59,352 nt of DNA from Spirochaetota bacterium (GTDB lineage Bacteria > Spirochaetota > Spirochaetia > Treponematales > UBA12059): assembly GCA_029560805.1 (NCBI GenBank), contig JAKQKE010000189.1:1-59352 (forward strand). Reading direction: 5' to 3'. The notes under the pieces were generated by a model. That model searched no databases and had not been told where the DNA came from. It worked only from the letters and a program-made list of their open reading frames with translations. This document shows positions 3,322-54,019 of the stretch, in pieces (the stretch's first letter is position 1; each line of letters starts with the position of its first letter). A program made the position numbers and the translations under genes.

Positions 3322-4071
3322 ATGAGATGTACCATCAAGGCTATCTACGCGTCACTGGCCCTGTCGGCCCTGGCCGCCTCGGCCCAGGCCCAGGCCCCGG
3401 ACGCGGCCGAGCTACTGGCGCGCGTGGACGACAACCAGGCCTTCTCGAGCATAGCGTACGAGGCGCGCATGGAGATACGCGTCGGTAGCCAGCTCAGGGT
3501 CAAGTCGATGCGCGCCTGGGCGATGGGCGCCGATAAGGCCTTCGTCGAATTTACCAACCCCGAGGACGCCGGCACCCGCATGCTCAAGCTTGGCAAGGAT
3601 CTATGGATGTACTTTCCCTCGGAGCAGGATACGGTACGCATCTCCGGCCATCTGCTCAAGGAAGGCATGATGGGCTCGGATTTCTCGTACGAGGACGCGC
3701 TCGAGTCCGACGAACTGAGCGAGGCCTACGCCGCCTCCGTGACCGGCGAGGAGTCGGTCGGGGGCCGTCGTGCCTACGTCGTGGAACTCAAGGCCAGGAC
3801 CCAGGCCGCGAAGTACGACCGTCGGGTGCTCAAGGTCGACGCCGAGCGCTTCGTCGTGCTCGCCGAGGACATGTACGCCCGTTCCGGCAGGCTCTTAAAG
3901 ACGATGGAAGCCGTCAAGGTCGAGCGCGTCTCCGGGCGCTGGTACGCCACGGAGCTCGTGCTCCGCGACCGGCTACGCAAGGACTCGAGCACGACGATGG
4001 TGATGGTGTCGCTCGAGCTGAACCCGGCGCTTGACCAGGCCATGTTCACCAGGGCGGCGCTCGAGCGATGA
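3322..4071 (+). CDS. LolA-like outer membrane lipoprotein-sorting protein
   Basis: This is a 249-residue secreted protein with a signal peptide (hydrophobic core about 8-20, cleavage after AQA). The mature part matches the periplasmic LolA-like fold family often called outer membrane lipoprotein-sorting protein (PF17131). Characteristic stretches are MLKLGKDLWMYFP, a GSDFSYED segment and an RVLKVDAE segment. Family members carry lipid or lipoprotein across the periplasm on a half-barrel. It starts at ATG 3322 after AAGGAG, and its 3' end overlaps the next gene by four bases (ATGA), implying coupled translation. With the upstream ABC genes and downstream barrel it suggests an inner-to-outer membrane export path. 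The family call is good; the cargo is unknown. Confidence 0.8.
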   Translation: MRCTIKAIYASLALSALAASAQAQAPDAAELLARVDDNQAFSSIAYEARMEIRVGSQLRVKSMRAWAMGADKAFVEFTNPEDAGTRMLKLGKDLWMYFPSEQDTVRISGHLLKEGMMGSDFSYEDALESDELSEAYAASVTGEESVGGRRAYVVELKARTQAAKYDRRVLKVDAERFVVLAEDMYARSGRLLKTMEAVKVERVSGRWYATELVLRDRLRKDSSTTMVMVSLELNPALDQAMFTRAALER

Positions 4072-5258
4072 GGCGACGCAGTGAACTGGCCGTGGCGCTC
4101 CTCGCCGCGGCGATCTGCACCGGACCGCTCTCGGTAGCGGCATTCGGCCAGGTCTCGTCACCGGACGAGCCATCGTCGCCGGACAAGCCGTCGTCGCCGG
4201 ACAAGCCATCCTGGTCCGGCGAGGCATCGTTCGCGGCGGCCGGCGCCTGGTCCGAGGGCTCTGGCGAGGCGGACGACGAACTGCGTTACGGATCCGACGC
4301 CTCGCTCAGGCTGAGCCTCGACGCCAGGCGCCCGGGCCTACGGGCGAGCGTGTCGGGACGGGTCGACGCTCTGACGGGCTCGGCCGCGGCCGCCGTGTTG
4401 GCCGCCGGAGACCGTTTCGGAGCGATCGCTCTCGGTACCGGGGACGCGGCCGTCGCCCTGACCCTCGACCGGGCCTACCTGCGCTGGGCGCCTGGGCCGG
4501 TCGTAGCGACTCTCGGCCGCCAGGTGGTGAACTGGGGTTCGGCGCTCCTCTGGAGCCCGGCCGACCTCTTCGCCGAGACGGCCGTCGTCGGCCTCGAGCC
4601 GGAGCGCTCCGGCATCGACGCAATTCGGCTCGCGGCGCCCTTAGGCGCCCTCGGCGGCCTCGAGGCGGTCGCCGTACCGAGCGCCTCGCCCACCGACGGA
4701 CGCTACGGGGCCAGGCTCTACGGCTACACCCTCGGCTCGGACCTAGGGCTTCAGGCCGCCTGGGACGGCGGCGACGGTACGCTGACGGCGGCCATCAGCC
4801 TCAAGACCGACCTGGTCGTCGGCCTATGGTTCGAGGCGGCATATACCGCCCCGGCCTCGGCTTTCCTGGAGCCGGCCGAGGCCGGGTTCGAGGCTACGGT
4901 CGGTCTCGACTGGTCTCTAGGCGGCCGGCTCGTCCTCTCCGCCGAGTATCGGTACCGTGAAGGCGGGGCCGCCAGCGAAGCCGAGTCCCTGACGGCGCTC
5001 GCGGCCGGCGAGTCGTACCCGGGAGGCCACTATGCCTACGCGACGGTAAACCTGAGCGCGGGCGACTTCGCGTCGATCGGCGCCTACGCCATTGCCGACC
5101 TTGGCAACGCCATCGCCAGCGTGACGGCCTACGCGGTCGTCGACATCGCCCAGGACGCCTCGCTGACCGCTTGGGCGAGCTATGCGTCCGGAAGCTTCGC
5201 CACGCTCGCCGAGCGGCGATACGCCGGTTTAGGCGCCTCGCTGAGCCTGGCGTTCTAG
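4068..5258 (+). CDS. Putative outer membrane beta-barrel protein
   Basis: This 396-residue protein has a signal peptide (about 1-28) followed by a short low-complexity linker of repeated SSPDKP units (bases about 4155-4210). The remainder alternates hydrophobic and polar residues, rich in Gly, Ala and aromatic residues, and ends in LSLAF with a terminal Phe as in outer membrane barrels. It overlaps the LolA-like gene by four bases and is the last gene of the ABC operon. In comparable operons a barrel of the DUF1302 or alginate-export kind often follows a LolA-like gene. No exact family is recognised here. Its place suggests it receives or exposes the exported cargo. Confidence 0.6.
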   Translation: MRRRSELAVALLAAAICTGPLSVAAFGQVSSPDEPSSPDKPSSPDKPSWSGEASFAAAGAWSEGSGEADDELRYGSDASLRLSLDARRPGLRASVSGRVDALTGSAAAAVLAAGDRFGAIALGTGDAAVALTLDRAYLRWAPGPVVATLGRQVVNWGSALLWSPADLFAETAVVGLEPERSGIDAIRLAAPLGALGGLEAVAVPSASPTDGRYGARLYGYTLGSDLGLQAAWDGGDGTLTAAISLKTDLVVGLWFEAAYTAPASAFLEPAEAGFEATVGLDWSLGGRLVLSAEYRYREGGAASEAESLTALAAGESYPGGHYAYATVNLSAGDFASIGAYAIADLGNAIASVTAYAVVDIAQDASLTAWASYASGSFATLAERRYAGLGASLSLAF

Positions 5259-5282
5259 CGACCGGACGCCTCCGTATAAACG

Positions 5283-5310
5283 AAAAGGCCCGCGACAGGT
5301 CGCGGGCCTT
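5283..5310 (-). terminator. Intrinsic terminator between convergent genes
   Basis: An 11-bp perfect stem (5285-5295 with 5300-5310) has a four-base loop. Read on the minus strand it is followed by TTTTCGTTT, so it best terminates the FecR transcript. It can also block the plus-strand ABC operon, which ends 25 bases upstream. Confidence 0.8.
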
Positions 5311-5328
5311 CGGCGTATTCCAGGTAGG

Positions 5329-6012
5329 CTACAGTATCGTAATGACCACGGTAGCCGTCGGCGGCGTCATGTCAATGGCGCCGCTCAGCTGGACGTCGAC
5401 CCTGGAGTCGGAGTCGGCCTGGTCGATCAGCTCGTCGATGCGCTCGAGGCCGCCTTCGGCGCTCACGGCCGCGGGCGAGGTTACCGAGCCGTTCGTGGCG
5501 ACATAGCTGAACTCGCCGCTACGCACGTAGCGCGTCATGCCGTGAGGCGTACGCAATTGCACCGAACCGTGCGCTACGAGCAGGTTCGTGCCGTCGAACT
5601 CGAAGCCGGTACCGCGCACGGAGGCCGTGGCGGTCGGGCTCTTGACCTGGAACTCCACGGCCGAACTGGCCTGGGGCGTCACCTCTGCCTTGACCCTGCC
5701 CGCCAACAGGAACAGCTGCGTCTGGGTACCGGACTCGGTCTGCAGGATCTCCTCGAGGGACAGCCTCGTGATCGGCTTTACGGTGACGGTCGACGTACCC
5801 ACCTTGAGAAGGACGGTGCTCTTGAAGCCGGTCGACACGATCGTCCCCTTGGGCAGGGCGTCACCGACCTTGGCCGGCTTCCAGTCCTTGCCTGGCACCT
5901 GGTACTCGACCTTGCCGGCTATCTCGACGACGGTGGCGCTCAGGGTCGCGGCCATGGCCGCCGAGGCGACGACGACCAGCATCGCCGCAGTCACTATGCA
6001 TCGTTTCATCAT
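5329..6012 (-). CDS. FecR domain-containing secreted protein
   Basis: This 227-residue protein has a signal peptide (about 1-21, AMAATLS) and a FecR-type beta domain. Recognisable features are GKVEYQVPG, VGDALPKGTIVSTG, a LLKVG strand, and the SPTATASVRGTGFEF block, which is typical of periplasmic FecR domains. FecR domains sense or scaffold signals in the periplasm. It is the last of three minus-strand genes (7710 to 5329) divergent from a CHASE2 adenylate cyclase. This pairing suggests an accessory role in envelope sensing. The start ATG at 6012 follows GGAAGGATG. No anti-sigma transmembrane segment is present, so this is not a classical FecR anti-sigma factor. Confidence 0.82.
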   Translation of the reverse strand: MMKRCIVTAAMLVVVASAAMAATLSATVVEIAGKVEYQVPGKDWKPAKVGDALPKGTIVSTGFKSTVLLKVGTSTVTVKPITRLSLEEILQTESGTQTQLFLLAGRVKAEVTPQASSAVEFQVKSPTATASVRGTGFEFDGTNLLVAHGSVQLRTPHGMTRYVRSGEFSYVATNGSVTSPAAVSAEGGLERIDELIDQADSDSRVDVQLSGAIDMTPPTATVVITIL

Positions 6013-6049
6013 GGTCTCACATCCTTCCGCCGCTGGCGCGGCTGGTTCG

Positions 6050-7261
6050 TCATAACCGCAGGGTCGCCGAGGCGGCCGCCATCCACTCGAGCGAGGCGTC
6101 CGGATCGGCCGTAGCGTTCGGGGCGAAGCACCCGCCTTCTATCCCGAGCGTCACATCGCTGGCGGGCTTATATTCGACGCGTCCGGTCAGCTCGAAACCG
6201 AGATACGAGTCGTCACCATTCGGCCTGAAATTGGCTCCGCATCCGGCACCGATAGTCAAGCCGCGCAAGGGGACGAAGGACGCGTCGAGCGACGCGCCGA
6301 GCGCGTCGGAGAACATCGTCCCGGCGACAGACGATAGCGAACCGGTCGTAATCGGCTTGAAGGCCCGCATCGCCCCGTCGCCGTCGTAGTCCCCGCCGGC
6401 CCAGGCGCAGGAAGCCGTGACGCGCAGCCCGGCCAGCTCCGGCGCCGACAGCCTGATCCGCCCACCCGCTGCCATGCCGTAGAAGAAGCCGGGATCTTGA
6501 CCGAATTCGGCCGCGCCCCAGAGCCGCCAGCGTATCGACCGCGCGACGCGGCCCTCGATGAAGGGCTCGGCGTATTGCGTATGGGTAGCGGTCCCGCCGG
6601 CGGCTGCCAGGTCGAACTGGGCCCAGCCGTCGAGGCCGAGGTCGTGGAACGGTACGAGCTCGACCAGGCGCAGGCCGAGTGAGGCGAGCAGGCGGCGCGG
6701 GGCGAAGGCCACCTCGTCGTCCGACCATGCGCTCTCGTCGTCGGCGTCTATCAGGATCATCGCGTCGTCCTTGAAAGTCAGCCCGGTATAGGCCACGGCC
6801 GCGCTCACGATCGCCTGCCCTGCCGACAGGCGGACGACGGCCCCGTCCAGGAGGCCATTCAGGACGCGGCCCGAATAGTCCTGGAGCGGTATACGGCCGA
6901 CCGACCAGCCGAGGCCCATCGACTCGCTCAGGCCGACGAAGCCTTCCCACTCGACGCGTCCGGCGGTGATCGAATACCAGCGGACGCGGTCCGAGTACGA
7001 GGGCAGGTAGGTGAAGTCGCCCGAGAACTCGTAGACGGCGGACGCGTAGATGGACGAGGAGGCGCCTATCGGTAGCGACAGCCATAACACGGCGGAGTCG
7101 CTCTGCGACAGCGATAGGCCGCCGCCGCCGGACAGCTCGGAGTCGTTGGATAGGGTAAGGCCGAAATCGAGGGCGAAGGCGTTGCCGGCGCATAAGACCG
7201 CGACGAGGGCGAGACAGGCGAGGGCCCTAGGGGCCGTGCGGCTTGATCTCAGGCGGTTCAT
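6050..7261 (-). CDS. Putative outer membrane beta-barrel protein
   Basis: This 403-residue protein has a signal peptide (about 8-30, ending near AFALD). The rest is Gly/Ala-rich alternating beta sequence, with many aromatic-flanked strands and a C-terminal SATLRL strand. Its start overlaps the end of the upstream gene by four bases (7258-7261), so the two are translationally coupled. No known family is recognised. The context (small secreted protein, FecR protein, divergent cyclase) suggests a surface component of a sensing module. Confidence 0.6.
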   Translation of the reverse strand: MNRLRSSRTAPRALACLALVAVLCAGNAFALDFGLTLSNDSELSGGGGLSLSQSDSAVLWLSLPIGASSSIYASAVYEFSGDFTYLPSYSDRVRWYSITAGRVEWEGFVGLSESMGLGWSVGRIPLQDYSGRVLNGLLDGAVVRLSAGQAIVSAAVAYTGLTFKDDAMILIDADDESAWSDDEVAFAPRRLLASLGLRLVELVPFHDLGLDGWAQFDLAAAGGTATHTQYAEPFIEGRVARSIRWRLWGAAEFGQDPGFFYGMAAGGRIRLSAPELAGLRVTASCAWAGGDYDGDGAMRAFKPITTGSLSSVAGTMFSDALGASLDASFVPLRGLTIGAGCGANFRPNGDDSYLGFELTGRVEYKPASDVTLGIEGGCFAPNATADPDASLEWMAAASATLRL

Positions 7262-7710
7262 TCGGCTATTCCCTTCACGTCGAACACGCGGCCGAGCATC
7301 CTGACGGCGACCGGGCCGGAGACGGCCATATCAGGGTCGGAACGGCCCTGGATGACGAAGCTCGAGACGAGCTGCCTATAGGCATAGCGAGGCCCGGGGA
7401 ACAACGCGTACATGAGGCCGCCCCGAAGGCCGAAAGCGCTCATCAAGAGATACGCATAGTCCTTGAGTAGAATGGGCACGTCGGCGGAAGCGCCCGTCGG
7501 AGCCCAGCCGAAGGTGCCGAGGAGCTCGAAGGCGCGGGCGGCATCGGCGTCCTCGCCGAGGTTGTCCGAGGCGACCAGCACGAGGTAGGCCGCCTGGCCG
7601 ACGCTGACCGAGTCCGACGCTATCAGGCCGTCGACGAAGTCGTTCGACTGCCCGATGGCGGCGACGACGCATAGCGACGCCAGGATAAGGGATGCACATA
7701 CTCTTTTCAT
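7258..7710 (-). CDS. Hypothetical secreted protein
   Basis: This 150-residue protein has a clear signal peptide (about 1-20, ending AAIGQ). The mature part is mainly helical in appearance (VGQAAYLVLVASD, DYAYLLMSAFGL) with no catalytic motif seen. It is the first gene of the minus-strand FecR operon and shares a four-base overlap with the barrel gene. Its promoter lies in the 69-base divergent gap with the cyclase. The function is unknown. Confidence 0.6.
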   Translation of the reverse strand: MKRVCASLILASLCVVAAIGQSNDFVDGLIASDSVSVGQAAYLVLVASDNLGEDADAARAFELLGTFGWAPTGASADVPILLKDYAYLLMSAFGLRGGLMYALFPGPRYAYRQLVSSFVIQGRSDPDMAVSGPVAVRMLGRVFDVKGIAE

Positions 7711-7734
7711 ATGCCACCTTTAAACGGGAATATG

Positions 7735-7748
7735 CGTAGTATACTACG
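7735..7748. promoter_or_regulatory. 14-bp perfect palindrome between divergent operons
   Basis: The sequence CGTAGTATACTACG is its own reverse complement. It contains TATACT on one strand and its mirror on the other, so it may be a shared operator overlapping the -10 elements of both the cyclase and the FecR operon. No convincing -35 is seen on either side at 17 bases, so activator-dependent transcription is possible. This is inference from position and symmetry. Confidence 0.5.
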
Positions 7749-7779
7749 GTAACAAAAGTTTATCAGCATGGAGGCTCCG

Positions 7780-10491
7780 ATGCCCAAACGAAAAGTATCG
7801 CGCAGGCTTATAGTCGTACCGATCGCCATAGGCATCGCGTTCTCCCTGCTCTACCTGGTGCCGGCGTGGCGAGACCTCGAGCATGGAGCCTATGACCTCT
7901 TCCTGCGGCTTAAGCCGGCCGTAGCCGAAGACGGGGCCATCGTGCTACTCGACATAGAGGACGCCTCGATAGACAAGATCGGCACCTACCCCTGGCCCAG
8001 GGGACTGCTCGCCCACGGACTCGAGGCGCTGGCCGAACTTGGGGCCGACTACGTCGTCTTCGATATAGAGTACCTCGAGAAGAGCCCCATGACGGTGGAC
8101 GACAGCTACCTGCGAGGCGGCCTCAGAACCGAATTCGATACGGCATTCGAAGAGATAGGCTCGAACATGGCCGAGGTATTCCAGTCGCTGGCCAATAAGC
8201 GCATTCCGCTGGCCGACGCAGGTGTATACGGCGGCTCGCTGGTCGAGTATATCGACGAGACCAGGGAATACCTCTACAGCAAGACCAACCTGGTAGCGAT
8301 CGAGAACGACGCGTACCTTGGCCAGGCGATGCGCCTATTCGGCAACGCCTACACGACGCTCAATATCCAGAAAACCCGCCCGAACGAGTCGTTCATGAGC
8401 CGGATGGAGCTGGTCGAGGACCGCTTCGCCTACGCCGGGCTGTCCCTCGAACGCCCGATGCCGAAGGAGAGCGCAGGCTTCCTCGTCCCCATTCCCGAGA
8501 TCAGCGGCTTATCCAAGGGCGCGGGCTTCACGAACGTCGATATCGACTCGGACGGCGTGCGTAGGCGCATCAAGCTGGTCGACTTCCACGACGGCAAGCC
8601 CTACCTACAGCTGTCCCTGGCGCCCCTCCTCGACAGGCTCGGTAAGCCCGGCCTCGTCTACGGCCGGCGCGAGCTGCGGCTGATCGGCGCGAAGTACCCG
8701 GACGGCGTACGCGACGTACGCATCCCGCTGGCCATGGACGGCACGATGCTGATCCGCTGGCCCAAGAAGACGTATATCGACAGCTTCGACCACATCGCGT
8801 TCCACGACCTGCTGACCTACCGCGATGAAGCCGGGGCGTTCGCCGACGCCGTCAGGCTGCTCAGGGCCAACCAGGGCTGGACCCTCGGGCCGGGCTATGC
8901 GCCGGTCGACGCGTGCCTGGCGGCCTGGGACGAGAGCGAAGCCTACCGCGAGACCGCACTCGACAGCGGGTCGGCCGAGGACCGCGAGGCCTGGCTGGCC
9001 TCCAGGCGGGAATACTGGCTGACGGTCGGGGAGTTCGTCGGTATGGACTACGGCGACAGCGTCCCCGCCCTGTACGACGCGGCCCGGGACGCCGACGACC
9101 CGGCCTACGCGGAGCTGTACGATCAGATGCGCGACGACTTCTCCCTCCTCTGGAACCGGGCCTCGGAATCCTACGCCAGGCACCTGCGCTACGACGAGCA
9201 CCTGCGCGGCAAGCTCGAAGGCGCGTTCTGCATCGTCGGCTGGACCAGTACCGGCTCGACCGATTTCGGCGTCAATCCCTTCGACTCGGAATACGAGAAC
9301 GTCGGGACGCATGCCGCGGTCGCCAACACGATACTGCAGCGCGACTTCCTACGGGAGGCGCCGCTGTGGATATCGTCGCTATTATCGCTCGCCCTCGCGG
9401 CCGCGGTATTGCTGGTTATCGGCAGGCTCGGCACACGGGCGCAGCTGCTGGTCGGCTTGGGCATGACGGTCGCCGTCGCCCTGGCCGACTACGCCGTATT
9501 CCATTTTACGGGCGTCTACGTCGCCGTCCTGTCGCCACTCCTAGCCACCCTGGTGTCGTTCATCGCCTACTCCCTGCTATCGTTCCTCCTTTCCGAGCGG
9601 GAGAAAAGCTTCCTACGCAAGGCTTTCAGCACCTACCTGTCCGGCGACGTGATCAACGAGATCATCTCCGACCCGTCGATGCTCAAGCTCGGCGGCCAGA
9701 AAAAATGGATTACCGCGATGTTCACCGACATCCGCGGCTTCTCGACCATTTCCGAGGCCTTGGACGCCGAGCAGCTCGTCAAGCTGCTCAATATCTACCT
9801 GTCCGGCATGAGCGACATCATCCTCGAGAACCGGGGCACTATAGACAAGTACGAGGGCGACGCGATCATCTCGTTCTTCGGCGCCCCGCTCGGCTACCAG
9901 GAACACGCCAGGCTCGCCTGCCGTTCCGCGGTGCTGATGAAGCGCAAGGAAGCGGAGCTGAACGAGCGCCTGCTCGCCGACGGCATGACGCCCAACCCGC
10001 TCCTGACCCGCATCGGGCTGAACACCGGCGACATGGTCGTCGGCAACATGGGCACCGAGCGCAAGATGGACTACACTATCATGGGCAACGCGGTGAACCT
10101 CGCCGCCAGGCTCGAGGGCGTCAATAAGCAGTACGGCAGCTGGATACTGATGTCAGACGCGACCTACCAGGAGGCCGGAGAGGAGTTCCTGGCCAGGCGC
10201 CTCGATCGGGTCAGGGTGGTCGGCATCAATACGCCGGTCCAGCTCTGGGAGCTGGTCGGCCTCAAGGCCGATACGGACGAAGGGACGCTCGACTTCCTGG
10301 CCCGCTTCGAGGAAGCGCACAAAACCTTCGACGGGCGAGACTGGAAGAAGGCCGCGAGGTTGCTGTCGGCCCTGGCCGCCGAGCGCCCGGACGACGGTCC
10401 GACGAAGTCGTATATAAAGAAGTGCGAAGTCTTCACCCTGAAGCCTCCGGCGTCCGACTGGGACGGGGTGTTCAGCTTGACGGAAAAATAA
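7780..10491 (+). CDS. CHASE2-domain class III adenylate cyclase
   Basis: This 903-residue membrane enzyme would make cAMP from ATP in response to an extracytoplasmic signal. An N-terminal membrane segment (about 6-26) leads into a long CHASE2 sensor region (to about 523) with a large insertion. Three or so membrane segments follow (about 523-606), then a class III cyclase domain. Metal-binding Asp650 (FTDIRGF) and Asp694, the adenine-selecting Lys690 and Thr766, and transition-state Asn773 and Arg777 are all present, so it should be active and ATP-specific. ATG 7780 is chosen because GGAGG at 7770-7774 lies at ideal spacing; an ATG at 7768 would overlap that site. It is divergent from the FecR operon. 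Confidence 0.92.
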   Translation: MPKRKVSRRLIVVPIAIGIAFSLLYLVPAWRDLEHGAYDLFLRLKPAVAEDGAIVLLDIEDASIDKIGTYPWPRGLLAHGLEALAELGADYVVFDIEYLEKSPMTVDDSYLRGGLRTEFDTAFEEIGSNMAEVFQSLANKRIPLADAGVYGGSLVEYIDETREYLYSKTNLVAIENDAYLGQAMRLFGNAYTTLNIQKTRPNESFMSRMELVEDRFAYAGLSLERPMPKESAGFLVPIPEISGLSKGAGFTNVDIDSDGVRRRIKLVDFHDGKPYLQLSLAPLLDRLGKPGLVYGRRELRLIGAKYPDGVRDVRIPLAMDGTMLIRWPKKTYIDSFDHIAFHDLLTYRDEAGAFADAVRLLRANQGWTLGPGYAPVDACLAAWDESEAYRETALDSGSAEDREAWLASRREYWLTVGEFVGMDYGDSVPALYDAARDADDPAYAELYDQMRDDFSLLWNRASESYARHLRYDEHLRGKLEGAFCIVGWTSTGSTDFGVNPFDSEYENVGTHAAVANTILQRDFLREAPLWISSLLSLALAAAVLLVIGRLGTRAQLLVGLGMTVAVALADYAVFHFTGVYVAVLSPLLATLVSFIAYSLLSFLLSEREKSFLRKAFSTYLSGDVINEIISDPSMLKLGGQKKWITAMFTDIRGFSTISEALDAEQLVKLLNIYLSGMSDIILENRGTIDKYEGDAIISFFGAPLGYQEHARLACRSAVLMKRKEAELNERLLADGMTPNPLLTRIGLNTGDMVVGNMGTERKMDYTIMGNAVNLAARLEGVNKQYGSWILMSDATYQEAGEEFLARRLDRVRVVGINTPVQLWELVGLKADTDEGTLDFLARFEEAHKTFDGRDWKKAARLLSALAAERPDDGPTKSYIKKCEVFTLKPPASDWDGVFSLTEK

Positions 10492-10650
10492 GCGATCGCT
10501 GACGAGCTCGCGCTCCGGCGGCGCCGGATCGCGTACTCGCAGCGAAAGCCGCCTGAAATTGAAGCGGTCGTGCGCGGTAGCGCTCGCCGCATACTTTCGG
10601 GGCGGGTGGCGAGGATGCTTATACGGCTTCGTTGAGGAGTGAGGTACATC

Positions 10651-11559
10651 ATGCATGACTATCGGGCAGTTCGCTTAATTCGAGGGGCCAAGGCGGTCGT
10701 CGAGGGCGCGGGAGTACGCCTCTATAGAGCCGTCGGGCTGGGCGATCCTGAGGAGTGTGATCCGTTCCTCTTGCTCGACGATTTCCGCTCGGACGATCCG
10801 AGGGACTATAGCAGGGGGTTTCCGTGGCACCCGCATAGGGGCATAGAGACGATAACGTACGTGCTCAAGGGCACCGTGGAGCACGAGGACAGTATCGGCA
10901 ATAAGGGCGTGATCGGGCCAGGCGATGTCCAATGGATGACCGCGGGGAGCGGCATCTTCCATCAGGAGATGCCGCGCGGTGACGGCGATGGCTCGATGCA
11001 CGGCTTCCAGCTATGGGCTAACTTGCCGGCGAGCGATAAGATGAAAGAGCCGAGGTACAGGGGCATACGCGGCGAGGATATCCCGAAGGTAACGACTCCT
11101 AACGGCGTGGTCGTCAAGATTATCGCCGGCGCTATCGACGGCACGACCGGGCCAATCGTCGATGTCGTCAACTTACCGGAATACTACGATGTACGCCTTC
11201 CGGAGAATGTCGAGTATGCGCATCGGACGACACTCGGGAGTACCGTCCTTATCTACGTGTACGAGGGCTCGGGCTCCATCGAGGGCTCGGGCTCCATCGT
11301 GGGCTCGGGGGCGAGCGGCGGCTCGGGTGGGCTCGAGATAGGGAACCGTTCGCTCATCCTCTTCGAGGACGGGCGGGATATTGCGATCAAGAGCGGGGCG
11401 GCCGGGCTCAAGTACCTGTACGTTTCCGGTGCGCCGCTCCGCGAACCCATCGCGTGGAGGGGCCCGATAGTCATGAACACCAGGGAAGAGCTACGGCTCG
11501 CGTACGAGGAGCTAGATAACGGGACGTTCATCAAGACCAACACGAGGAATCGGCACTAG
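10651..11559 (+). CDS. Pirin family protein
   Basis: This 302-residue bicupin protein belongs to the pirin family, whose members act as Fe-dependent quercetinases or redox-linked regulators. Metal ligands His60 and His62 (HPHRG), His104 and Glu106 (FHQEM) are all present. GDVQWMTAGSGI and FQLWANLP are also typical. ATG 10651 fits the ribosome-binding site GGAGTGAGG at 10635-10643 better than the GTG at 10639. An unusual insertion of Gly-Ser repeats (about residues 205-228, bases 11263-11335) sits in the C-terminal cupin. This gene and the next use visibly more A/T-ending codons than their neighbours, which may indicate recent transfer. Confidence 0.9.
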   Translation: MHDYRAVRLIRGAKAVVEGAGVRLYRAVGLGDPEECDPFLLLDDFRSDDPRDYSRGFPWHPHRGIETITYVLKGTVEHEDSIGNKGVIGPGDVQWMTAGSGIFHQEMPRGDGDGSMHGFQLWANLPASDKMKEPRYRGIRGEDIPKVTTPNGVVVKIIAGAIDGTTGPIVDVVNLPEYYDVRLPENVEYAHRTTLGSTVLIYVYEGSGSIEGSGSIVGSGASGGSGGLEIGNRSLILFEDGRDIAIKSGAAGLKYLYVSGAPLREPIAWRGPIVMNTREELRLAYEELDNGTFIKTNTRNRH

Positions 11560-11574
11560 GGAGGAAGCTTCGCT

Positions 11575-12255
11575 ATGGATTTAGATCGGGCCAGGGAGTA
11601 TCGTAGCGTTTATAGGGTATCGTTCTACGCTACGATCGTCATGTTGATAATTATTCCGGTGCAGATACTGGTCTTCGTCGTTACGAAGATCCCGGCTACG
11701 ACGATAGCTTGGTTCGAACTGTTCAGAGATAGCGTCGTGCTAGGGATGTTCCACGCGGATCTCTTCATCCTGATCAACAACGTTTTGATAGCGGTCATCT
11801 ACCTGGCCTTCTACCATAGCCTCAAGGACGTGGACAAGGGCATGTTGCAGATCGGCATCATGATCGGGCTCATCGGAATAGCCGCCTACATCTCCTCGAA
11901 CAAGACCTTCGAGCTGATGGCCCTATCGCGGCAGTACTTCCTCGCGGCAGAAGGCGACGCCAAGCTGGCGATCGAGGCGGCTGGCAAGGCGTCCTTGGCG
12001 GGCTGGCAAGGGACGGCGTTCGACGCGTACTACGTGCTCAACGGAATAGCCCTGTTCGTCATATCGATCCTGATGTACAGGAGCGATGTCTATACCAAGG
12101 CTACCGCGACCTGGGGCCTGCTCGCGGCAATCTTCATGATCATCCCCTCGACCGCTGGCACCCTGGGCTTGGTATGCTCGTTGGCCTCGCTCGTCCCTTG
12201 GTACGTCTTCGGCGTTCGCTTCGCCAAGGTCTTCCGTGCGCTAGGAAGGCCCTAG
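11575..12255 (+). CDS. DUF4386-like multi-pass membrane protein
   Basis: This 226-residue protein has about six hydrophobic segments (near 16-38, 53-80, 90-108, 145-165, 177-195 and 200-215). The overall order resembles the DUF4386 family of small inner-membrane proteins of unknown function. It starts at ATG 11575 after GGGAGGAAG, 15 bases downstream of pirin, so it is cotranscribed. No catalytic motif is seen. It shares with pirin a less GC-biased codon choice. Confidence 0.6.
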   Translation: MDLDRAREYRSVYRVSFYATIVMLIIIPVQILVFVVTKIPATTIAWFELFRDSVVLGMFHADLFILINNVLIAVIYLAFYHSLKDVDKGMLQIGIMIGLIGIAAYISSNKTFELMALSRQYFLAAEGDAKLAIEAAGKASLAGWQGTAFDAYYVLNGIALFVISILMYRSDVYTKATATWGLLAAIFMIIPSTAGTLGLVCSLASLVPWYVFGVRFAKVFRALGRP

Positions 12256-12344
12256 GGCTACGCCGAGCTCGGCCCGCGCCGAAAAGCTCGGCCGAGAAAG
12301 AGGAAGCGGGTAAAACCGGCAACTTCGGTAGCGGGCCGATACCA

Positions 12345-13121
12345 TCATCGCTCGACCGTATCCACGAGCTTCTTGACCGCTTCGCCGGCCTCCTCGAACA
12401 AGGAGCCGGTCTCCTTCTTGACGGTGTCCCAGGTAGCGCCGACGGCCTTGCCTAGGCCGGCCTGGAAGGCGTTGTCCACGGCGCGATAGCGTTCCTCGCG
12501 CTCCTCTTTATCGGGGAAGAGCTTGGCCCAGGCCTTGGCGTCGTCGGCGTACTGGAGCTCGCCCGCGACTACCCGGTCGAGGTACTCGTTGAAATGCTCG
12601 TCCAGCTCCGCGCGCATGGAGCGTCCGTAGTCCTCGGCCTTCACCGAGCCTAGCTTGGAGCCATGCTTGGCGAGCAGCGCGAAGTAGCGTTTGGCGTAGG
12701 CCCCGGTCCCGGCGTCGACCTTGGCGTAGTATAGACCGAGCTCGCGCTCGATCTCCGCCGCTGCCTTGAACGGCTGGGCCGAGGCCAGGTAGAGGCCTCC
12801 GGTGGCCAGGACGCAGGCCGCTATAAGGCCACCGATCAAGGCCCGCCCGCGCCTACGTCTGCGAAGGGCGTCTCGCTCCTCCCGAACAGAAGCCAAGCGA
12901 CGCTTGAAGGCGGCTACCATCTCGCGCCGCTCCGAGTCGGATAGGTCGCGGGCGTCCAAATCACGCTCGAAAAGTTCGGCGTACGCTTCGACGTGGTCGG
13001 CCAGGCGCTTCTCCTGCTCGAGGCCGCCTACCCGCGCCAGGGCGTCCCGATACGCCTCCGTGAAGAGCCTATCGAGGACGGGATCGTCCATGACCCGTGA
13101 CCTGGTCTCTTTCGTCTTCAT
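12345..13121 (-). CDS. Hypothetical single-pass membrane protein
   Basis: This 258-residue protein has a charged cytoplasmic N-terminal helical region (1-90), an Arg cluster (about 83-92), one transmembrane segment (about 94-114), and a helical extracytoplasmic domain ending in an amphipathic tail. No family is recognised. The start ATG 13121 has no ribosome-binding site, but it is preceded by a promoter whose -10 ends six bases upstream, so the mRNA is probably leaderless. That supports this start over the internal ATG at 13091. Confidence 0.6.
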   Translation of the reverse strand: MKTKETRSRVMDDPVLDRLFTEAYRDALARVGGLEQEKRLADHVEAYAELFERDLDARDLSDSERREMVAAFKRRLASVREERDALRRRRRGRALIGGLIAACVLATGGLYLASAQPFKAAAEIERELGLYYAKVDAGTGAYAKRYFALLAKHGSKLGSVKAEDYGRSMRAELDEHFNEYLDRVVAGELQYADDAKAWAKLFPDKEEREERYRAVDNAFQAGLGKAVGATWDTVKKETGSLFEEAGEAVKKLVDTVER

Positions 13122-20360: not shown

Positions 20361-20394
20361 ACACAAGGGCCGCCCGATCGGGCGGCCCTTGTGT
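20361..20394. terminator. 34-bp perfect palindrome between convergent genes
   Basis: Two 17-base arms are exact reverse complements, with the GC core GGGCCGCCCGA. It lies between the LysM gene (ends 20327, plus) and the aminopeptidase (ends 20414, minus). It probably works as a bidirectional terminator, although no long T tract follows on either strand. Confidence 0.7.
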
Positions 20395-53636: not shown

Positions 53637-54019
53637 GACCCTATCCTTTCGTCGTCGCCGCGCGCCTGGCGCGCGGCCCAATACCCGGCCAGGTCGTCGA
53701 GGCCGAGACCCAGCTCGTCCATGCCCTTCCAGAGGCGCGGCAGCTCCTCCTCGAGGAAGCGCCGCCGCCGCCCGCCGAGCGCGACGTCCCTGCCCCCGTC
53801 GGCGACGAAGTAGCCGGTTCCCCGCTCGCAGCGGGCGACGCCGTCGTCGGCGAGGGCCTGCAGGGCCCTCGCGGCGGTATTCGGATTGACGCCCAGCGAG
53901 GCCGCCAGCTCCCGCGCCGAGGGTAGCCGGGCTCCCGGACCCAGCCGTCCGGAGAGGACGTCCTCCGCCAGGAGCTCGGCGATCTGCGAAAAGATCGGGC
54001 GCTCGCTACTGAACCTCAT
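53633..54019 (-). CDS. GntR family regulator, YtrA type
   Basis: This 128-residue regulator has an N-terminal winged helix (IFSQIAELLAEDVLSGRLGPGARLPSARELAASLGVNPNTAARALQAL) and a short C-terminal helical tail, as in YtrA-type GntR proteins that control ABC operons. ATG 54019 has AGAAGGAAG upstream and overlaps the permease 3' end by 14 bases. It probably represses its own operon through the site upstream of the ATPase gene. Here the regulator comes third rather than first in the cassette. Confidence 0.88.
   Translation of the reverse strand: MRFSSERPIFSQIAELLAEDVLSGRLGPGARLPSARELAASLGVNPNTAARALQALADDGVARCERGTGYFVADGGRDVALGGRRRRFLEEELPRLWKGMDELGLGLDDLAGYWAARQARGDDERIGS

Follow-up and report, generated by a model that had tools for sequence, protein, structure and literature searches.

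We analysed a 59,352-nucleotide stretch of DNA from a Spirochaetota bacterium (contig JAKQKE010000189.1, assembly GCA_029560805.1; hereafter the window), in which the gene for a CHASE2 adenylate cyclase lies divergent from an operon encoding a small secreted protein, an outer-membrane beta-barrel and a FecR-domain protein (Table 1). A first-pass annotation of the bare sequence had proposed that these genes form an envelope-sensing cyclic AMP (cAMP) module whose two arms share a palindrome. The gene set and the palindrome were confirmed in place, as was the divergent layout, with the palindrome in the sole gap between the cyclase on the forward strand and the operon on the reverse strand. The idea that the envelope proteins and the cyclase belong together gained strong support from conserved linkage and co-occurrence across the phylum.

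Genes at the locus

On the reverse strand the operon runs small-barrel-FecR, the small gene and the barrel start overlapping by 4 nt (ATGA). The cyclase start was the one correction to the annotated gene set. In all six relatives compared, a GGAG motif precedes the later start, and in four of the six (L037, L040, L042 and L043) the ATG at the position equivalent to 7768 is missing; judged from the sequence, the start appears better placed at ATG 7780 than at 7768. With that start, the intergenic gap spans 7711-7779 (69 bp).

Pfam found both expected domains in one cyclase chain, CHASE2 at E = 6.6e-33 (114.8 bits, cut-off 26.3) and Guanylate_cyc at E = 2.6e-17 (63.4 bits, cut-off 21.9). The nearest structure to the cyclase domain was Pseudomonas aeruginosa CyaB (3r5g, E = 1.2e-38), with which the catalytic motifs FTDIRGF, KYEGDAI and MDYTIMGNAVNLAARLE align, leaving the active site intact, as first annotated; these motifs contain both metal-binding Asp residues, the substrate Lys and Thr, and the transition-state Asn and Arg. 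The product would be cAMP. The same genome has 2 CHASE2 matches and 13 matches to the cNMP-binding domain, 12 of them over the cut-off.

The third gene of the operon matched Pfam FecR (PF04773; E = 1.6e-9, 38.5 bits, cut-off 24), and its alignment (A3) took in 33 sequences. Among the nine proteins scanned with Pfam at 3322-13121, no extracytoplasmic function (ECF) sigma gene, as expected of a FecIR-type regulator, was found beside the FecR gene; sigma genes elsewhere in the genome were not sought. Sequence profiles built on the PDB gave no credible match for the small protein, the barrel or the FecR protein, the last having a weak match to MtxA (E = 0.18).

Table 1. Positions of the predicted genes and signals at the cyclase locus
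Feature	Position	Strand	Basis and remarks
Terminator-like hairpin 3' of the FecR gene	5284..5311	-	12-pair stem, T-rich tail, between convergent stops; consensus match only
FecR-domain protein, 227 aa	5329..6012	-	Pfam FecR; signal peptide apparent on visual inspection
Outer-membrane beta-barrel, 403 aa, 18 predicted strands	6050..7261	-	AlphaFold2 model, likeness to AlgE
Small secreted protein, 150 aa, predicted SLH fold without TRAE	7258..7710	-	AlphaFold2 model
Perfect 14-bp palindrome CGTAGTATACTACG	7735..7748	both	Sequence; interpreted as one symmetric -10 region serving both directions
TATACT, candidate -10 for the small-barrel-FecR operon	7738..7743	-	Promoter scan, with -35-like CTGATA and 17-nt spacer
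TATACT, candidate -10 for the cyclase	7740..7745	+	Sequence; retained in L037, L038 and L039
CTGATA, -35-like hexamer, 4/6 to consensus	7761..7766	-	Promoter scan
GGAGG, Shine-Dalgarno-like, cyclase	7770..7774	+	Sequence; 5 nt before ATG 7780
Class III adenylate cyclase with CHASE2 sensor, 903 aa	7780..10491 (corrected start)	+	Pfam, CyaB 3r5g match, tree

Linkage of the small protein, barrel, FecR protein and cyclase

To survey the neighbourhood in other genomes, we assembled two sets of loci. The first was picked by the cyclase through a contig search, keeping the best 80 of 182 loci, and partners were sought in it by profile searches of open frames. The second comprised 80 regions around matches to a profile of the small protein, a subset of the match list with mostly higher scores; one of these (L147) is the same stretch as a cyclase-picked locus (L069). 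The small protein and the barrel were searched for in Spirochaetota genomes, PDB sequences and protein-family libraries. The spirochaete framing of the first-pass annotation was right: 79 of the 80 cyclase-picked loci are recorded as spirochaetes, counting Breznakiella, which we take to be one, and the remaining locus only as 'bacterium'.

Within the 80 cyclase-picked loci, many of which end early, the small protein was found in 40, the barrel in 42 and the FecR protein in 52. In 36 loci the cyclase is flanked by 2.4 kb or more on each side; of these, 27 carry the complete set of partners, 1 has the small protein and the barrel, 4 have a FecR alone and 4 have no partner. Where a small gene was present (40 loci), it was divergent from the cyclase in 33 and in another order in 7.

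Starting from the small protein, linkage within the triad of small protein, barrel and FecR protein was nearly invariant, with a barrel in 80/80 regions and FecR in 79/80 within 3.5 kb; in the region without FecR (L212), the contig ends about 1 kb past the barrel. The prevailing order was small-barrel-FecR (57 regions), followed by FecR-small-barrel (17) and small-FecR-barrel (4), and one region has an inverted gene. A cyclase of at least 350 aa lay within 9 kb in 45 of the 80 regions, being divergent in 24, downstream on the same strand in 19, upstream on the same strand in 1 and convergent in 1. From these counts the triad emerges as the core, and the cyclase as a frequent but not constant neighbour. 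At one locus (L090, 485-5828), the small-barrel-FecR triad is tandemly duplicated upstream of a single cyclase. Cultured species with the module include Breznakiella homolactica (L062) and Alkalispirochaeta alkalica (L100), neither of which is known to be pathogenic.

Co-occurrence across genomes and the cyclase tree

Co-occurrence was counted over 296 Spirochaetota genomes, with a close cyclase match set by us at E = 1e-80 or better; the count ignores shared descent. The small-protein profile matched 119 genomes and the cyclase 103, and 100 of these 103 also had the small protein; 174 genomes had neither. Tightening the cyclase threshold to 1e-85, 1e-90 and 1e-100 left the same three cyclase-only exceptions, while the number of genomes with the small protein only rose to 22, 28 and 56. 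The three exceptions (G111, G227 and G233) are assemblies of 190, 170 and 440 contigs with completeness 95, 77 and 85, and G233 has a barrel match. The small protein was present in 20 of the 23 genomes searched from the window's own family and order, and a 1.1-Mb genome (G032) matched neither the small protein nor the barrel.

The genes are thus clearly not independently distributed among relatives, but the palindrome in its full length is not widely conserved. That they are chance neighbours without a functional tie, for which nothing speaks beyond the general frequency of divergent pairs, is extremely improbable in view of their linkage and co-occurrence over the phylum.

A cyclase tree (FastTree; 115 rows, from 122 cyclases before near-copies were removed) helped to sort the loci lacking partners. 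The share of triad rows in this tree is biased upward, because half of the tree material was picked by the small protein. Eleven loci had a short FecR as the only partner (L086, L091, L096, L099, L104, L106, L107, L108, L113, L114 and L115); the tree includes 10 of them, every one in a distinct clade of 14 rows. We therefore rejected partner loss as an explanation of the FecR-only cyclases; their clade is perhaps a second FecR-CHASE2 system in spirochaetes. Two loci whose contigs stop just before the FecR gene (L067 and L081) group in the triad clade. Outside the FecR-only clade, adequate flanks without any partner were seen at L041 and L075; L078 is absent from the tree. L041, a close relative with no adjacent partners, corresponds by coordinates to genome G050, in which a small protein and a barrel are both encoded on a different contig.

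In five genomes, a diverged second small protein lies about 3 kb or less from a second cyclase (G001 C420, G004 C167, G006 C232, G009 C32 and G050 C150); G050 also carries a second barrel.

The cyclase of Treponema vincentii OMZ 806 (L040, 6001-8703) is 62% identical to that of the window and sits beside the window's clade in the tree, and the cyclase of genome G324 (family code f3) shows the same identity. The other f3 genomes listed have full-length cyclase matches of mostly about 32-41%. Judging by these sequences, the L040 module is a candidate for horizontal transfer.

Predicted folds of the small protein and the barrel

Neither the small protein nor the barrel of the window had a Pfam or NCBIfam match at E up to 0.1, and we turned to structure prediction. 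The AlphaFold2 model of the small protein, made with 38 sequences as input, had a mean predicted local distance difference test score (pLDDT) of 93.7 over residues 21-150. In a Foldseek search, the first 15 rows were all S-layer homology (SLH) domains, the best at E = 8.4e-3. Structural realignment gave Z scores of 10.8-12.0 for 13 SLH-domain entries (best SpaA-SLH, 7sv4: Z = 12.0 over 122 residues, root-mean-square deviation (rmsd) 3.3), 8.7 for an S-layer cytochrome and 3.7 for the next row. The drop between the SLH rows and those that follow speaks for a true SLH match, and the model has the three-repeat SLH fold as a prediction with Z in an ambiguous range.

The sequence differs from that of classical SLH domains. 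The SLH consensus reads ITRAEFA, in which TRAE is the ligand motif; the SLH-like repeats seen by eye in the small protein have the consensus ITLGEYS and LSGEEA, TRAE occurs in 0 of the 38 sequences, and Pfam SLH matched none of the 38 at E up to 1. Wall binding by the small protein therefore cannot be assumed. The most strongly conserved stretch is GG-LMY-PGPRYA-REL.

The barrel model had a mean pLDDT of 92.3 over residues 31-403 and 18 strands. Its nearest structure was AlgE (Z = 30.5 over 340 residues, rmsd 3.1), followed by MOMP and OprD-type porins, with OmpM1 at Z = 19.5; as a prediction, it has the 18-strand AlgE-type fold. With E up to 0.1 allowed, Pfam Alginate_exp matched 8 of the 34 aligned barrels (best 7.8e-5), the window protein not among them. 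A predicted outer-membrane barrel of this kind would fit the putative 'surface sensor' of the first-pass annotation.

A candidate shared promoter in the divergent gap

The palindrome was annotated exactly, with TATACT on both strands; as such, it is not rare. The window contains 11 perfect palindromes of at least 14 bp, and 20 shuffled windows hold 5 to 15, so that we rejected the palindrome as a rarity at window scale. For this gap, dinucleotide shuffles produced a palindrome in 120 of 20,000 cases, and rarity was kept at that scale. The longest perfect palindrome found in the window, the 34-bp ACACAAGGGCCGCCCGATCGGGCGGCCCTTGTGT, is at 20361-20394.

One explanation for the palindrome is an operator, bound by a dimeric regulator that controls both units. 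All 14 positions are symmetric in the window and in L037 (cyclase 92% identical), and 12 are kept in L039. The centre, GTATAC, strikes us as reminiscent of GntR-type sites, and the genome has 8 GntR-domain matches, 7 over the cut-off, one of them in the window (53804-53989, reverse strand). Speaking against an operator, L038 keeps AGTATACT and one arm but has lost the other, and longer palindromes were not seen in the more distant relatives examined. A search of the genome allowing up to 2 mismatches found 8 further places (9 with the palindrome itself; 1 in a backwards control), of which 6 lie inside genes by rough gene calls and 2 are intergenic, one of these being itself AGTATACT in a divergent gap. 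We rejected an operator with a regulon because 6 of the 8 near-copies are inside genes, and with the full 14 bp kept in L037 alone of the relatives examined, a regulator's binding site found no support; we consider it quite unlikely.

The part of the palindrome retained more widely is the TATA core needed by two back-to-back -10 elements, and the -10 matches on the two strands share bases at 7735-7748. From the sequence, the palindrome is more likely a promoter core for both directions than a regulator's binding site. The scan that paired the reverse-strand -10 with a -35-like hexamer found 2 promoter-like sites within 5000-10800 against 0.9 expected.

To ask whether such an arrangement is usual, we collected 53 divergent module gaps, 50 after identical ones were removed (L045, which has no start, was excluded). 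Hexamers resembling a -10 were found on the forward strand in 49/50 and on the reverse strand in 50/50 (shuffle means 35.5 and 36.0). The control consisted of 116 divergent gaps elsewhere in these loci, whose bounding genes were called crudely and in which related loci are not independent. A pair of -10 elements sharing a central TATA was present in 30/50 module gaps versus 26/116 control gaps (p = 5e-6), and in 24/40 versus 9/48 among gaps up to 130 bp. AGTATACT occurred in 9/50 versus 5/116 gaps (p = 0.006), compared with a mean of 0.13 and a largest value of 2 module gaps in 300 rounds of shuffling. Of the 30 shared -10 sites, 30, 28, 13 and 30 were symmetric at 1, 2, 3 and 4 positions from the centre, and between 7 and 18 were so at positions 5 to 9; site selection largely forces the inner values, and the information lies in the outer arms, most of which lack symmetry.

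Shared -10 promoters are reported to be common, with divergent starts mostly 18 bp apart and also 10 or 23 bp, and polymerase binds them in one direction at a time (PMC12825309; for this and every paper cited below, we draw on part of the text). With each start placed 7 bp from its own -10, the two in the window would be separated by about 21 bp. Coordinated expression, as first proposed, is therefore plausible through a shared promoter for the divergent loci (24 of 80 triad regions); it does not extend to the other 21 regions with a cyclase, nor to the 35 without one within 9 kb in the stretch retrieved.

A proposed envelope signalling line

Taken together, these results lead us to propose, with a probability of roughly 0.6, that the four proteins form a spirochaete envelope signalling line, and that in this genome one bidirectional promoter serves both units. 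The evidence supports the parts themselves, the folds predicted for them and the conservation of their association; the contacts, the direction of signalling, the ligand, the cAMP output and the activity of the promoter are what we infer, the direction from domain knowledge and by analogy with the Sinorhizobium meliloti precedent described below. In this line, the 18-strand outer-membrane barrel, together with the periplasmic SLH-fold protein and the periplasmic FecR protein, would detect a ligand at the cell surface or a change in the condition of the outer membrane. The signal would pass to the periplasmic CHASE2 domain of the inner-membrane receptor, whose cytoplasmic class III domain would make cAMP, probably read by Crp-like proteins. 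The TATACT elements on the two strands share their central TATA, so that polymerase could load either way, never both at once, and the shared promoter would tie the expression of sensor and cyclase without a dedicated regulator.

A broader version, which we hold tentatively and at somewhat less than even odds, is a trans-envelope second-messenger system specific to the Spirochaetota. Here, the SLH domain would be recast from a wall anchor to a signalling adaptor, with the GG-LMY-PGPRYA-REL patch replacing TRAE, and an AlgE-like barrel would signal through FecR to the CHASE2 cyclase. At divergent loci, competition for polymerase at one symmetric -10 would set the ratio of sensor to enzyme.

Several observations weigh against the proposed line. 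No cyclase was found within 9 kb in the fetched stretch of 35/80 triad regions, 27 of which extend 6 kb or more to each side of the small gene, and 19/119 genomes with the small protein have no close cyclase match; the triad may therefore work alone. Conversely, the cyclase-only genomes G111 and G227 match neither the small protein nor the barrel. For the SLH fold, there was no Foldseek match at 1e-3, and Z scores below about 13 can, as the alignment tool warns, reflect a common arrangement in helical models. For the promoter, no good -35 was seen by eye in the forward direction; the control gaps are longer (median 150 versus 90.5) and richer in G+C (39 versus 31%) than the module gaps; the difference in AGTATACT among gaps up to 130 bp is weak (7/40 versus 2/48, p = 0.07); and 20/50 module gaps versus 11/116 control gaps have instead two -10 elements 13-16 bp apart (a spacing seen in L164, L169, L171, L174 and L177). 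Bidirectional promoters are common anyway, at 19% of Escherichia coli RNAs (PMC12825309). Perception of the plant signal by S. meliloti does not require a FecR-domain protein that is one of the Clr/cAMP targets (PMC5498481).

The same 35 regions and 19 genomes favour an alternative in which the triad forms a transporter or a structural element of the envelope, made of a barrel with periplasmic adaptors, and the cyclase is merely co-regulated with it or controls it, so that the barrel is no receptor for the cyclase. The structures nearest to the barrel, AlgE and OprD-type porins among them, serve export and uptake, which points the same way. What makes this alternative unlikely, in our view, is the strength of the reverse dependence, with the small protein in nearly every genome that has the close cyclase, together with the diverged second small proteins near second cyclases and the occurrence of FecR beside CHASE2 receptors in Campylobacterota (PMC9239204) and Burkholderia (PMC5192318) as well.

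What CHASE2 domains sense was largely open as of 2016 (PMC5192318). The proteins found with one CHASE2 cyclase clade through much of a phylum are candidates for the upstream components, and the question thereby becomes accessible to gene deletion combined with cAMP measurement. If the proposed signalling line is true, the SLH fold is used outside plain wall anchoring, and spirochaetes have an envelope sensing route of this kind.

Flanking genes

Two genes at 3322-5258 are convergent with the FecR operon. One encodes a LolA-like lipoprotein-sorting protein, the other a further barrel-like protein with a weak DUF1302 match below cut-off; both are also found upstream in L037 and L038. The hairpin between the two units is one of 3 terminator-like sites found within 5000-10800, against 2.4 expected.

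Comparison with known systems

In the openly licensed literature searched, which leaves subscription papers mostly outside, we found neither the four-part spirochaete module nor any paper joining CHASE2 and spirochete. Barrels working with CHASE2 cyclases (S. meliloti) and CHASE2-FecR clusters (Campylobacterota) are already known; a constant SLH-fold member and a four-part set spanning the spirochaete phylum we have not seen in print within that literature. At the sequence level, the putative promoter resembles published bidirectional promoters in having a symmetric -10 shared by divergent units (PMC12825309).

The closest functional precedent is in S. meliloti, where the uL2 signal requires NsrA, a barrel of the outer membrane, together with CyaK, a cyclase of the inner membrane. 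As proposed here, an outer-membrane barrel works with inner-membrane CHASE2 cyclases (CyaK and CyaD1/D2) to raise cAMP; the portions available mention no SLH-fold protein, unlike the system here, and the likeness drawn between the barrels concerns their proposed function (PMC7529298, PMC13001267).

Pairings of FecR with CHASE2 receptors are found in other phyla. In Campylobacterota, a CHASE2 cyclase and a FecR-domain protein share one cluster, as here, and a common pathway has been proposed from the clustering; the other members are a phosphodiesterase and a TPR protein, with no separate barrel or SLH-fold protein mentioned in the available portion (PMC9239204). In magnetotactic bacteria, mtxA is followed by a CHASE2 cyclase gene (PMC4439547). 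The Burkholderia BiofilmReg operon places a LysM-FecR protein, predicted to be extracytoplasmic, beside a CHASE2 receptor, thus combining FecR, a wall-binding-type domain and CHASE2 as here. There, however, CHASE2 belongs to a histidine kinase that is accompanied by a response regulator; the wall-type domain and FecR are in one chain, the fourth gene encodes DUF4136, and the part of the text drawn on mentions no barrel (PMC5192318).

The combination of an outer-membrane barrel with a periplasmic SLH domain recalls the OmpM tether of Negativicutes, a single chain with a stalk, 16 strands and a trimeric SLH (PMC10628300). In the spirochaete module, by comparison, barrel and SLH-fold protein are separate genes and proteins, the barrel has 18 predicted strands, the small protein lacks TRAE, and FecR and often a cyclase are added.

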